NCBI GenBank assembly: GCA_013376995.1
Contig: JACAAZ010000012.1
Location: 62,001-126,000 of the forward strand
Origin: Bacteroidota bacterium
GTDB lineage: Bacteria > Bacteroidota > Bacteroidia > Bacteroidales > UBA4417
Length of the DNA stretch: 64,000 bases
Direction of reading: 5' to 3'
The stretch's first letter is position 1, and every line of letters starts with the position of its first letter. This document shows positions 5,870 to 48,409 of this stretch, one piece after another. Position numbers and translations under genes: made by a program. The notes beneath the pieces are model-generated. The model saw only the letters and a program-made list of their open reading frames with translations, had not been told where the DNA came from and ran no database searches.

Positions 5870-5885
5870 GTGATCTAATATTTTG

Positions 5886-5958
5886 CACGGGTGGTAGGAG
5901 TCGAACCCACAGCCTACGGTTTTGGAGACCGCCACTCTACCAATTGAGCTACACCCGT
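5886..5958 (-). tRNA. tRNA-Trp (anticodon CCA)
   Basis: A 73-base cloverleaf on the minus strand. The acceptor arm ACGGGTG pairs with CACCCGT, the discriminator base is G (typical for tryptophan), the D-arm reads GCTCAATTGGTAGAGT, the anticodon loop carries CCA, and the T-arm contains GGTTCGACTCC. CCA is not encoded at the 3' end. The position between tuf and secE matches the arrangement in several other bacterial phyla. Confidence 0.96.
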
Positions 5959-6029
5959 TTAATCCTTGCCTGCTCTGTGATACAGCCTCCAAAACAGGCC
6001 AGACACCAGAAACATTAATTATTATTGGC

Positions 6030-6065
6030 AGGAAAGGTGTTCCTCATGACGGGAACACCATTCCT
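6030..6065 (-). promoter_or_regulatory. Hairpin between tuf and tRNA-Trp
   Basis: AGGAA, one unpaired base, and GGTGTTCC (6030-6043) pair with GGAACACC, one unpaired base, and TTCCT (6052-6065) around an 8-base loop. It lies 15 bases after the tuf stop and before tRNA-Trp. There is no T-run on the minus strand, so it more likely marks mRNA processing or partial termination that separates the abundant tuf transcript from the secE-nusG part. Confidence 0.5.
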
Positions 6066-6080
6066 GTATTCTTACTTTAG

Positions 6081-7268
6081 TTAATCAAGAATTTCAGTTA
6101 CCTGACCGGCACCTACGGTACGACCACCTTCGCGGATAGCGAAACGGAGGTTCATATTCATAGCGATTTCAGCAATCAGCATAACTTCAATGGTGATGTT
6201 GTCACCTGGCATACACATTTCAACACCTGCTGGAAGAGTAATTTCACCAGTAACGTCAGTTGTCCTGAAATAGAACTGGGGACGATATTTATTCTGGAAT
6301 GGAGTGTGACGTCCACCTTCTTCTTTCTTCAGGATATAAACCTCAGCTTTGAAATGCTTGTGAGGAGTGATTGAACCTGGTTTTGCAATGACCATACCAC
6401 GACGGATGGCGTCCTTGTCAATACCGCGGAGTAACAGACCTGCGTTGTCACCAGCTTCTCCTTCGTCGAGGAGTTTGCGGAACATTTCAACACCTGTACA
6501 AACTGATTTCAGTTTTTCAGCACCCATACCAATGATATCAACTGGATCACCAACGTGGATGATACCTGTTTCAATCCTGCCGGTAGCAACTGTACCACGA
6601 CCGGTAATTGAGAACACGTCTTCAATAGGCATAAGGAATGGTTTGTCAACCAAACGCTCTGGCAAAGGAATCCATGTGTCAACAGCATCCATGAGTTCCA
6701 TGATCTTTGCAACCCATTTTGGTTCTTTATTCAGTCCGCCGAGAGCTGAACCCTGGATAACCGGGGTATTGTCACCGTCGAAACCGTAGAATGTAAGGAG
6801 GTCGCGGATTTCCATCTCAACGATCTCAAGAATTTCTTCATCATCAACAAGGTCAACCTTGTTCATGAAAACAACAAGACGGGGAACACCAACCTGGCGA
6901 GCGAGAAGGATATGCTCGCGGGTTTGAGGCATAGGACCGTCAGTAGCAGCAACAACGATAATAGCACCGTCCATCTGGGCAGCACCAGTTACCATGTTCT
7001 TAATATAGTCAGCGTGACCTGGACAGTCAACGTGAGCATAGTGACGATTAGCAGTTTGATACTCAACGTGAGCAGTATTGATGGTAATACCTCTTTCTTT
7101 TTCTTCCGGAGCGTTGTCAATTGAATCGAAAGACCTGTATTCCGAAAGACCTGCGTCAGCCAACACCAGGGTGATAGCAGCAGTAAGCGTGGTCTTGCCA
7201 TGGTCAATGTGACCGATGGTACCTACGTTCACGTGAGGTTTTGAACGATCGAATTTTTCTTTTGCCAT
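6081..7268 (-). CDS. tuf: Elongation factor Tu
   Basis: EF-Tu, 395 residues, delivers aminoacyl-tRNA to the ribosome as a GTP complex. The G-domain motifs are intact: GHIDHGKT (residues 18-25), the switch region [19 protein letters not shown], and the NKVD guanine-specificity motif. Domains II and III follow ([12 protein letters not shown], then [21 protein letters not shown]). The gene sits just behind the four-tRNA cluster and ahead of tRNA-Trp and secE. This is the tufB-type location and the only tuf copy in the window. Confidence 0.98.
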
Positions 7269-7319
7269 GATAATTAATGTTTATGGATTTACTTGTTAAT
7301 GTTTAAACATAAAAATTTG

Positions 7320-7391
<72 letters not shown>

Positions 7392-7462
7392 TTAAAATTC
7401 ATTAATTCAGAAACCAACCGTTTTGACTGCAGGTTCAAACCGGGGTTACTAAATTGTATCTG

Positions 7463-7535
7463 AGCGGAAGACGGGGCTCGAACCCGCCACCTATAGCTTG
7501 GAAGGCTATCGCTCTACCAAATGAGCTACTTCCGC
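7463..7535 (-). tRNA. tRNA-Gly (anticodon TCC)
   Basis: A 73-base cloverleaf on the minus strand with acceptor GCGGAAG/CTTCCGC and discriminator T, as usual for glycine. The anticodon loop is CTTCCAA, giving anticodon TCC, closed by ATAGC/GCTAT. The T-arm contains GGGTTCGAGCCC. It is the third member of the tRNA cluster. Confidence 0.95.
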
Positions 7536-7543
7536 AATTGTTG

Positions 7544-7625
7544 TGGGGGGAGGAGGATTCGAACCTCCGAAGGCTTAGCCAACAGATTTACAGTCTGCCC
7601 CATTTGACCGCTCTGGTATCCCCCC
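7544..7625 (-). tRNA. tRNA-Tyr (anticodon GTA)
   Basis: An 82-base class II tRNA on the minus strand. The acceptor GGGGGGA pairs with TCCCCCC and the discriminator is A. The anticodon GTA lies between CAGACT and AATCTG. The long variable arm reads TTGGCTAAGCCTTCGG and the T-arm GGAGGTTCGAATCCTCC. It is the second member of the cluster. Confidence 0.95.
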
Positions 7626-7641
7626 GCATTTAAAAGAACTG

Positions 7642-7714
7642 AGCCGATAGAGGGACTCGAACCCCCGACCAGCTGATTACAAATCAGCTGCTCTACCAAC
7701 TGAGCTACATCGGC
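7642..7714 (-). tRNA. tRNA-Thr (anticodon TGT)
   Basis: A 73-base cloverleaf on the minus strand with acceptor GCCGATG pairing with TATCGGC (one G-U pair), D-arm GCTCAGTTGGTAGAGC, anticodon TGT between GCTGATT and AATCAGC, and T-arm GGGGGTTCGAGTCCCTC. It is the first gene of the Thr-Tyr-Gly-Thr-tuf unit. The order equals the thrU-tyrU-glyT-thrT-tufB unit of Escherichia coli. Confidence 0.95.
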
Positions 7715-23439: not shown

Positions 23440-24225
23440 ATGAGTAAACCTAAAATATTGATCACCAACGACGATGGCATATCTGCCCCGGGCTTGCGTT
23501 ATCTCATTGAGGTAATGAAAGAACTTGGAGATTTGGTCATCATTGCGCCTGATAAACCACAATCAGGCATGGCACATGCCGTGACTATTCAAACGCCTCT
23601 CAGGATTCATGAAATTGTCAATACTCCTGGTTACCAGGAATATTCATGCAGTGGAACACCTGTCGATTGTGTTAAACTTGGCCAGAAGGTGATTATGAAA
23701 TGTAATCCCGACCTTATCGTTTCTGGTATTAATCATGGATCCAACTCTTCAATTAATGTGTTGTACTCAGGGACCATGGCTGCAGTAATAGAGGGAGCAA
23801 TGGAGGACATTCCAGCAATAGGGTTTTCACTCAACGATTATGCCTATCATGCAGATTTCAGTCATTGTGCACCCTATATCCTAACTATATCAAAACAAGT
23901 GCTTGGAAATGGACTGCCGGATGGTGTTTGCCTGAATGTAAATTTTCCGGAAAAAAACAGTTCTCCAATCAAGGGTATCAAGGTTGTCAGGCAAGCCAAG
24001 GCTTTTTGGGATGAGAGTTTCGATGAAAGAAAAGACCCTCACCGGCGCAGCTATTTCTGGCTACAGGGGGAATTTGTATGCAAGGATACAGCCGATGATA
24101 CTGACCAATGGGCGCTTAAGAATAATTATGTAAGCCTTGTTCCCGTGAGCATTGACCTTACAGCTCATCATGCCATGAAAGAAATCAAGAAATGGGATTT
24201 CCCGGCAAATACCAGTAATCAATAA
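23440..24225 (+). CDS. surE: 5'/3'-nucleotidase SurE
   Basis: A 261-residue SurE phosphatase, a metal-dependent enzyme that dephosphorylates nucleoside monophosphates. The metal-binding start ILITNDDGISAPGL (residues 6-19), the IIAPDKPQSGMAHAVT block, SGTPVDCVKLG and SGINHGSNSSINVLYSGTMA are all conserved. In many bacteria surE lies with stress or envelope genes. Here a small membrane protein gene and lpxB follow. Confidence 0.95.
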   Translation: MSKPKILITNDDGISAPGLRYLIEVMKELGDLVIIAPDKPQSGMAHAVTIQTPLRIHEIVNTPGYQEYSCSGTPVDCVKLGQKVIMKCNPDLIVSGINHGSNSSINVLYSGTMAAVIEGAMEDIPAIGFSLNDYAYHADFSHCAPYILTISKQVLGNGLPDGVCLNVNFPEKNSSPIKGIKVVRQAKAFWDESFDERKDPHRRSYFWLQGEFVCKDTADDTDQWALKNNYVSLVPVSIDLTAHHAMKEIKKWDFPANTSNQ

Positions 24226-47532: not shown

Positions 47533-47672
47533 GATAAAAAATATTAAGGTTAAAATTAATGTGTGAATTATTAACAAATGGAAGGGTGAGGAGTTATTGC
47601 GTGAATAGCATGGCTAAATAATTATGTAAAGATATTCAAAGTAACTATTAAAAAAAGTTTGTAAGATAATTG

Positions 47673-47723
47673 TGCGTTGTACTGGATTCGAATCCGTCAG
47701 CTGACGGAACCCCTACCCTGTCA
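47673..47723 (-). pseudogene. Modified 3' half of tRNA-Val, copy 1
   Basis: The plus strand matches the intact tRNA-Val from its 3' end (20 bases, 47673-47692) and again over ACCCCTACCCTGTCA (47709-47723), which reaches into the anticodon loop. Between them the tRNA's 5' T-stem bases are replaced by the 16-base palindrome TCCGTCAGCTGACGGA (47693-47708). The 5' half of the tRNA is absent, so it cannot be a functional tRNA. Its innermost TGA is the stop codon of the nuclease gene. Confidence 0.8.
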
Positions 47724-47975
47724 GGCCTTATTCGTCCTGAGGATTTCCCTGATAAAACTCCTGCCCCGGGATGTTTTCAATTCTCTTTCCCTTTTCATGG
47801 CTTGTTTGCGGTCTGAATATAATTCAGCATAAACAATAACCCATGGCTGGTATTTCCGGGTCCATCCTGCATTATCAATATCATTATGCTGTTTGAGTCT
47901 TTGTTGAAGATTGGAACTTTGTCCAATATAAATCTTCTGATATTCTGTTGAATACAAAACGTATGTATAAAACAT
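47721..47975 (-). CDS. GIY-YIG nuclease-family protein, copy 1
   Basis: An 84-residue single-domain GIY-YIG protein of the UPF0213/YhbQ-like type. The GIY strand is present as YTYVLYS (residues 3-9) and YIG (16-18). The catalytic Arg26 is in LQQRLKQHN, Glu63 in the helix KRERELK, and the C-terminal basic SRGRSF segment is present. It has no separate DNA-recognition domain. The stop TGA (47721-47723) lies inside the tRNA-Val homology. It is identical to the copy at 48052-48306. Transcription probably comes from the tRNA-Val promoter. Confidence 0.85.
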   Translation of the reverse strand: MFYTYVLYSTEYQKIYIGQSSNLQQRLKQHNDIDNAGWTRKYQPWVIVYAELYSDRKQAMKRERELKTSRGRSFIREILRTNKA

Positions 47976-48003
47976 ATCAATAATAAAAAACTGATAATAA
48001 TTG

Positions 48004-48054
48004 TGCGTTGTACTGGATTCGAATCCGTCAGCTGACGGAACCCCTACCCTGTCA
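48004..48054 (-). pseudogene. Modified 3' half of tRNA-Val, copy 2
   Basis: It has the same structure as the fragment at 47673-47723: 20 bases of tRNA-Val 3' end, the palindrome (48024-48039), and 15 bases reaching the anticodon loop. It separates the two nuclease genes. It cannot form a cloverleaf alone. Confidence 0.8.
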
Positions 48055-48306
48055 GGCCTTATTCGTCCTGAGGATTTCCCTGATAAAACTCCTGCCCCGG
48101 GATGTTTTCAATTCTCTTTCCCTTTTCATGGCTTGTTTGCGGTCTGAATATAATTCAGCATAAACAATAACCCATGGCTGGTATTTCCGGGTCCATCCTG
48201 CATTATCAATATCATTATGCTGTTTGAGTCTTTGTTGAAGATTGGAACTTTGTCCAATATAAATCTTCTGATATTCTGTTGAATACAAAACGTATGTATA
48301 AAACAT
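48052..48306 (-). CDS. GIY-YIG nuclease-family protein, copy 2
   Basis: An 84-residue protein identical to the distal copy. Its ATG at 48304-48306 lies 28 bases after the 3' end of the intact tRNA-Val in the same direction, so it has almost no room for its own promoter and is probably read from the tRNA transcript. The GIY-YIG residues listed for copy 1 are intact, so nuclease activity is possible. Confidence 0.85.
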   Translation of the reverse strand: MFYTYVLYSTEYQKIYIGQSSNLQQRLKQHNDIDNAGWTRKYQPWVIVYAELYSDRKQAMKRERELKTSRGRSFIREILRTNKA

Positions 48307-48334
48307 ATCAATAATAAAAAACTGATAATAATTG

Positions 48335-48409
48335 TGCGTTGTACTGGATTCGAACCAGTGACCCCTACCCTGTCAAGGTAATGCTCTAAACCAACTGAGC
48401 TAACAACGC
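48335..48409 (-). tRNA. tRNA-Val (anticodon GAC)
   Basis: A 75-base intact cloverleaf on the minus strand with acceptor GCGTTGT/ACAACGC, discriminator A and D-arm GCTCAGTTGGTTTAGAGC. The anticodon loop TTGACAG (anticodon GAC) is closed by TTACC/GGTAG, and the T-arm is ACTGGTTCGAATCCAGT. It is the parent of the two 3'-half copies downstream of it. Confidence 0.93.

Follow-up and report, generated by a model that had tools for sequence, protein, structure and literature searches.

Within the window (the whole stretch of DNA analysed, 64 kb long), an intact tRNA-Val(GAC), a host tRNA gene placed by ARAGORN at 48334..48409 on the minus strand, is followed in its own direction by two 331-bp units that are identical at 331 of 331 nucleotides. 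Unit 1 (47997..48327, minus strand) adjoins the tRNA and unit 2 (47666..47996, minus strand) comes after it; both were delimited as an exact repeat, and two exact copies of this length are far beyond chance. Each unit contains a gene for an 84-aa GIY-YIG nuclease, copy 1 at 48052..48306 and copy 2 at 47721..47975 (both minus strand). Both were called as ORFs, and the Pfam match (PF01541, E = 8.4e-18) was obtained for copy 2 and carried over to the identical copy 1. The protein is a single small GIY-YIG domain, with PF01541 spanning residues 1–70, and the spacer from tRNA-Val to the start codon measures 27 nt.

Head to tail, each unit runs spacer, GIY-YIG gene, tRNA piece, palindrome, tRNA 3′ end: after the gene come TGACAGGGTAGGGGT, then TCCGTCAGCTGACGGA, then TTCGAATCCAGTACAACGCAC, and then the first bases of the spacer again. 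The tRNA-derived part is a pseudo tRNA-Val 3′ half that starts at the GIY-YIG stop codon and extends from the anticodon loop to the 3′ end of the tRNA (48003..48054 in unit 1 and, with the same letters, 47672..47723 in unit 2, both minus strand). Within it, a 16-nt perfect palindrome, TCCGTCAGCTGACGGA, which a palindrome scan located without strand at 48024..48039 (copy 1) and 47693..47708 (copy 2), stands for six nucleotides (CACTGG) of the T arm of the intact tRNA. As read from its letters, the array has the intact tRNA at its front and a palindrome-interrupted tRNA copy closing every unit. An earlier sequence-only reading had described the intact tRNA, the two identical units, the 84-residue nuclease genes and a modified tRNA 3′ half beginning in the anticodon loop, all of which the analyses bear out; it overlooked the nature of the modification, a perfect palindrome, which is the important part of that half. 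It was also correct that the unit does without an integrase: no integrase ORF lies in the 331-bp unit, which besides the GIY-YIG gene holds only overlapping frames of 51 and 61 codons.

A scan of the 64-kb window for palindromes (arms ≥7, loop ≤4, G+C content at least half) returned only the two TCCGTCAGCTGACGGA copies and one palindrome at 23625. The single-strand fold energy of the window's tRNA half was no better than that of shuffles (z = –0.31) and is uninformative. Elsewhere in the window, at 5885–7714, lie five other tRNA genes (Trp, Thr, Gly, Tyr and Thr), where a search of the own genome gave no GIY-YIG match.

Identical units in the window are also what an assembly artefact or a chance repeat would leave. 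We regard this as very improbable: arrays in other genomes (L141, L082, L087 and L142) contain diverged units, which cannot be assembly doubles and establish that such arrays are real, and identical unit pairs also occur on a 3.3-Mb contig of G274, a genome in 5 contigs.

Recurrence behind tRNA genes

Matches to the window protein (E 1e-6) were found in 20 of 60 genomes, its own included, and a profile of 13 proteins like it, several of them beside tRNAs (profile A1), matched 196 of 295 sampled genomes of the window's class (E 1e-8). We tallied 119 GIY-YIG loci containing 177 GIY-YIG frames, a set that is not random, the part fetched from the class list being the best-scoring 89 loci in list order. 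Duplicates were dropped (L033, L036 and other loci from our own searches that overlap L082–L100), and L007, L008, L035, L041, L042 and L048 were left out; at L041 and L042 no tRNA lies beside the GIY-YIG gene. An intact tRNA on the same strand stood no more than 500 nt upstream in 83 of the 119 loci and in that interval was missing from 36. These tRNAs fall into 20 types by anticodon, led by Met(CAT) with 25, Val(TAC) with 18 and Asn with 13. The first GIY-YIG copy lay at most 100 nt behind the tRNA in 69 of the 119 loci, compared with 2 of 182 other ORFs (at least 150 aa) in the same loci. A tRNA 3′ copy followed the GIY-YIG gene in 53 of the 119, and a G+C-rich palindrome was found at the stop in 73 and not found in 46; counted by ORF, 95 of 172 had such a palindrome near the stop, compared with 5.7 once the letters were shuffled and 3 at positions within the gene. 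At least two GIY-YIG frames were present in 29 of the 119 loci (a count that takes in a few possibly single broken genes, L037, L130 and L132), with a maximum of ten near-identical copies in L138. The arrangement is real and recurrent in Bacteroidota.

The sequence-only reading had proposed a minimal tRNA-targeting mobile element and had called for a comparison of occupied and empty loci and for a look behind other tRNAs. Among 29 fetched tRNA-Val(GAC) loci of relatives (the best matches out of 60 genomes), none had a tblastn match to the window protein in the fetched flanks (E 1e-4); a DPP-type peptidase gene takes the window's arrangement at 12 of the 29, and a 13th has the peptidase on the other side. 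Behind other tRNAs the same kind of unit does occur, in varying copy number. With relatives' tRNA-Val loci empty, other tRNAs occupied, copy number varying and no integrase ORF in the unit, the proposal withstood the comparison that it had called for. We consider it partly supported: recurrence, absent loci and varying number speak for it, whereas movement is something we infer, and a host signal (below) points to vertical descent.

One pair of loci could be aligned within a genus. Between G274 and G073 an alignment covers tRNA-Met together with its two flanks (79% over 898 nt; 77% over 707 nt). At this place G274 carries two units plus a third that breaks off after 36 nt of the gene, and G073 carries none. 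G073 keeps ATGTACA, the first letters of the G274 gene, after the terminator, so that it is doubtful as a virgin site and ATGTACA may be a scar of loss. In the comparison for L142, no tRNA lay beside the matched flank in three congeners.

These distributions bear on the alternative of a vertically inherited host gene behind tRNAs, perhaps serving DNA repair or uptake, whose tandem copies would come from recombination between tRNA 3′ halves and whose palindromes would be terminators or other host signals. Comparisons of species show the coding sequence to be constrained (pN/pS 0.19 and 0.23; pS is close to saturation), a point that we count both for such a gene and for the nuclease–palindrome cassette proposed below, and the identical units in arrays also favor a host gene; its patchy presence, with none of the 29 tRNA-Val loci occupied and only 20 of 60 genomes matched, argues the other way. 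Overall we judge this alternative rather unlikely.

Other origins were rejected. The 14 phage-record matches to the window protein were all below 60% identity and none covered 80% of the query; only two records of the plasmid collection matched, at 34–35% identity; and of 92 pattern stretches scanned in IMG/VR, not one was confirmed. Families known from defence or phage gave weak partial matches only, and the group I intron-type GIY-YIG homing endonuclease model (TIGR01453) scored 20.0 bits against a cut-off of 56.05.

Palindromes inside and outside tRNA copies

An intact tRNA lay no more than 300 nt away in 82 loci; in 37 of these, the sequence of that tRNA directly flanked the palindrome on both sides, compared with 11 of 1107 random positions (38 had been listed, and L110, where the match was the tRNA's own T arm, was dropped). 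The palindrome lies mostly on the downstream side; an uncontrolled count put one upstream of the tRNA in 27 of the 82. The replaced segment recurs within a tRNA type: in 11 of 13 Met copies it is the 10 nt (ACCC..AGGT) directly following CATA, in 6 of 9 Asn copies the 10 nt that precede TTAATCA, and in both Asp copies the 12 nt that follow GTCA. In L087, L089, L099, L126, L130, L133 and L160 the replacement takes in the entire 17-nt anticodon arm, and in L094 three palindromes lie inside one tRNA-Asn-like copy.

Searching by flanks alone (CATA, insert, C), we found 52 pseudo tRNA-Met sites with 18 different inserts. All 52, which are partly non-independent because several lie within one locus or in related genomes, kept six of six outer pairs, with both-sided changes at pairs 2, 5 and 6; eight more matches to the flank pattern showed no such pairing and were rejected as Met copies of this kind. 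Because the outer pairing held over 18 different inserts, the hairpin is kept more than its letters.

A constant interruption point in Met and Asn copies is also what one would expect of a homing element whose nuclease recognizes the tRNA gene of recipients (at the anticodon or T arm), with the palindrome merely marking an interrupted, uncuttable site. Against it, 83 of 119 loci have an intact tRNA, and with it the complete target, next to the gene; taken with the tree results below, we think this explanation unlikely. The position of the palindromes also speaks against their being the terminators of a host gene, since they lie within tRNA arms, a distinct terminator-like hairpin often follows beyond them, and some genomes hold many of them at other places.

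Several loci carry tRNA-like sequence in other forms. At L048:150–900 and L206:380–1100, tandem pseudo-tRNA minisatellites (period ~112 bp) with palindromes in their arms repeat without a GIY-YIG gene, and are possibly non-autonomous relatives. In L086:794–2535, successive tRNA-Val-like copies have an altered anticodon arm; ARAGORN calls these copies tRNA-Phe(aaa) or undetermined, and annotation might count them as tRNA genes. In L031, L136 and L178, of the Asn lineage, the nuclease frame continues through the palindrome into the tRNA, giving tRNA-derived C-terminal tails.

The window's own genome (G000) gave eight matches to the window protein, both window copies included. At L003, near a contig end, a GIY-YIG gene comes after the 3′ portion of a tRNA whose anticodon is TAC; another lies between two TCCCGATAGCTATCGGGA copies set in tRNA-like sequence (L004); two in tandem stand behind tRNA-Asp with the palindrome TCTCGTCA...TGACGAGA (L005); and two matches are decayed, one at a distance of 1.35 kb from a tRNA that the contig end truncates (L007) and one immediately before tRNA-Leu (L008). 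L003, L004, L005 and L007 all lie within 1.5 kb of contig ends, and such arrays may break assemblies.

In G000, TCCGTCAGCTGACGGA occurs 31 times as a 16-mer and 33 times as a 14-mer, and its reversed control does not occur there at all. Of 32 distinct sites examined, 25 lie outside any stop-to-stop frame of at least 100 codons, and by eye many fall within short A+T-rich tandem repeats. One such stretch, L101:1–450 on contig C18, has four window palindromes in a AATGACTATTG-type tandem repeat, each preceded by GAATGA and followed by AATG. Two of 59 relatives contain the window palindrome, in 5 copies and 1 copy, and none of the 15 same-genus relatives among the 59 does; G021 has the 5 copies, yet no GIY-YIG match at E 1e-6. 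By comparison, TCCCGATAGCTATCGGGA occurs in 12 of 60 genomes, and a GIY-YIG match was present in 10 of those 12 compared with 10 of the other 48.

Copy number elsewhere varies widely. A palindrome present 35 times in G185 lies in another tRNA-Met copy of the locus, and the copy behind the gene differs from it by one pair. Locus palindromes are found at the locus only in G119 (3 copies), G337 (5) and G072 (once); G319 has 2 copies and G274 has 3, and in both genomes a single copy lies away from the locus. General dispersal of the palindrome is ruled out by these five genomes, in which 1 to 5 copies are confined, or nearly so, to the locus, a pattern that favors a host gene. The G274 palindrome occurs also in G116 (2 copies) and G073 (4 copies), and no matching locus was found for the palindromes in G073, G116 and G021.

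Nuclease lineages, palindrome classes and tRNA types

We mapped palindrome class, tRNA type and host onto a tree of 137 nuclease proteins, in which columns are few and many forks are unresolved. Palindrome class required 4 changes, compared with 22.4 when shuffled (minimum 17); this test covers 59 loci and four classes, which were defined after the palindromes had been seen, and leaves out rows with no palindrome or an unclassed one. tRNA type required 25 changes compared with 49.8 (80 loci, 20 types), and types with at least two members required 7 compared with 29.5 (n = 55). Both signals are strong, and allowing for the number of states, that of palindrome class is not clearly tighter.

The window lies in a clade of 36 rows (SH-aLRT 98) whose other members have Met tRNAs, where a tRNA was found, and it keeps the palindrome class of its clade despite its Val tRNA. 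Conversely, L084 stands beside tRNA-Met with another palindrome class and groups in the clade of that other class. Three loci run contrary to this partnership, L160 (tRNA-Met) and L144 and L170 (Val) having window-class palindromes outside the window clade. Because the class labels had been made after the first data, a better test of partnership is a named set of 35 loci found by protein likeness with three window-clade proteins as queries (two query loci, L222 and L238, were already in the tally, and L231 and L233 are duplicates). This set had an upstream tRNA in 25 of 35 loci, a 3′ copy in 13 and a palindrome in 22. All 22 palindromes were of the TCCG class, that of the window, as were 18 of 18 once L222, L238, L231 and L233 were set aside. 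The tRNAs were Met, Val(GAC), Asn (in Ignavibacteriota) and Ala (in Harrisoniibacteriota); in the window and L213 (Val), L223 (Asn) and L240 (Ala), the tRNA differs and the palindrome class is the same. In these sequences, that pattern argues that enzyme and palindrome belong together and that the tRNA is the address.

The same constancy across different tRNAs tells against homing into the tRNA gene, for which the retention of one tRNA type by whole lineages (25 compared with 49.8 changes, and 7 compared with 29.5) and L160, which pairs tRNA-Met with a window-class palindrome outside the main Met clade, would otherwise be points in favor. Host signal inside the lineages weighs against it as well and in favor of a host gene. 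Over the whole tree, host family required 67 changes compared with 77.8 in shuffles (minimum 73, 97 loci). Within the Met lineage it required 5 compared with 7.9 (12 loci), a value as low being reached in a fraction of 0.002 of 500 shuffles, and within the Val lineage 3 compared with 5.6 (10 loci), reached in none of 500. Host genus gave 2 compared with 3.6 for Met (0.036) and 3 compared with 3.5 for Val (0.43). No recent transfer was seen, the top identity between different genera being 0.73.

Together, the tRNA-type signal and the family signals within lineages lead us to view the nuclease lineages as tied to one tRNA and largely descending with their hosts, with losses and some switches. 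The data suggest much vertical descent within tRNA lineages, and ancient lineages that stay at one tRNA by inheritance, undergoing loss and tandem duplication, would explain much of what we see. Strong horizontal spread, hinted at by the predominance of tRNA over host signal, was weakened by the host-family test within lineages and was rejected. Three Niabella loci, which share at least 4 kb at 99%, were discarded as evidence of movement, being segmental duplicates.

Known systems and a proposed mechanism

tRNA-integrating elements such as islands and ICEs restore the tRNA where they begin, and a displaced 3′ half remains where they end. The units described here likewise have an intact tRNA at one end and a duplicated tRNA 3′ end; they differ in size (0.3 to 0.46 kb, compared with tens of kb), in having no integrase and in that the displaced half is interrupted by a palindrome. 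Closer in kind is the Ssn family of site-specific single-strand GIY-YIG nucleases with the NTS repeat in Neisseria, in which a small GIY-YIG protein is matched by a short repeat in the same genome and the recognition sequence differs per homolog. The small GIY-YIG protein is shared, as is, in some genomes, a short repeated sequence (31 copies in G000 and 35 in G185, compared with 1 to 5 in G119, G319, G274, G072 and G337), and the window palindrome is of the form TCCG...CGGA rather than of the TCCC...GGGA type. We know of no tRNA nesting, tRNA 3′ halves or tandem arrays in Ssn systems. The nearest solved relatives by sequence are UPF0213 proteins (PDB 1zg2, E 1.3e-12; 1ywl, E 4.7e-11), whose record names make no mention of a tRNA or palindrome context.

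In REPtrons, a tnpA-REP (RAYT) gene is bordered by REP palindromes, enzyme groups co-evolve with their palindromes, and the palindromes reach high copy elsewhere, according to passages of PMC8266576. A DNA-processing enzyme gene with a neighboring palindrome is common to both systems, here mostly on the downstream side and of a class that follows the nuclease tree; the REPtron enzyme is HuH, whereas the window protein is GIY-YIG and does not qualify as a HuH transposase, and the present palindromes are embedded in a tRNA copy, amplified in tandem behind tRNAs and at high copy in some genomes only. A further comparison is dRS3, ATTCCC(N8)GGGAAT (in a passage of PMC3898611), which a passage of PMC3733652 equates with the CGTC-1 REPs, of families reported in Bacteroidetes too. 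Palindromes of the sister class TCCCG...CGGGA agree with dRS3 in its inner part (PMC3898611, in part); the window's own TCCGTCAGCTGACGGA contains no TCCC...GGGA, and a dRS3 core was rejected for it. Nesting in tRNA genes is not described in those passages of PMC3898611 and PMC3733652, and a term search found no "GIY-YIG" in the latter. Nor did we recognize the arrangement in the portions of the searched literature that were available, including PMC1564403, PMC2267715 and PMC12306157. Within that literature, then, the nuclease-plus-palindrome kind is already known, and tRNA nesting with a palindromic tRNA copy was not found described.

By analogy with these systems, the nuclease–palindrome unit most likely works like a REPtron or an Ssn/NTS pair. 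The palindrome would fold as a hairpin in single-stranded DNA, during replication or DNA uptake, and the folded hairpin would be the cognate site of the neighboring GIY-YIG enzyme, whose nick or cut there would start recombination or repair. With the repeated tRNA 3′ halves as homology, units could be duplicated or lost, and might arrive at the corresponding tRNA gene of another cell; some genomes would see the palindrome multiply at other places as REP-like repeats. The tRNA gene would serve as a conserved address, and one that stays unbroken because every unit carries its own 3′ half. Cognate cutting and active transposition are what we infer from the sequences.

We give an even chance to the explanation that a GIY-YIG nuclease and its cognate hairpin form a cassette nested behind tRNA genes and amplified through repeated tRNA 3′ halves, and go no higher because the palindrome-class signal is not clearly tighter than that of tRNA type and L160, L144 and L170 are contrary. 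More speculatively, and with less than an even prospect of being right, such units may be among the smallest autonomous mobile elements: about 0.3 kb with one 84-residue nuclease, one hairpin and no recombinase, which would home into tRNA genes by hairpin cutting, rebuild the tRNA via the carried 3′ half, at times switch tRNA while a lineage keeps its hairpin class, and shed hairpins that become REP-like repeats.

This GIY-YIG group is common in the window's class and poorly understood; the findings link it to a specific partner, namely a palindrome lying within tRNA-gene copies. The predicted substrate of each enzyme is written beside its gene, which makes specificity directly testable. The units may account for unusual tRNA pseudogenes in Bacteroidota genomes and for some of the contig breaks there, and they offer a possible non-HuH route for the origin of REP-like palindromes.
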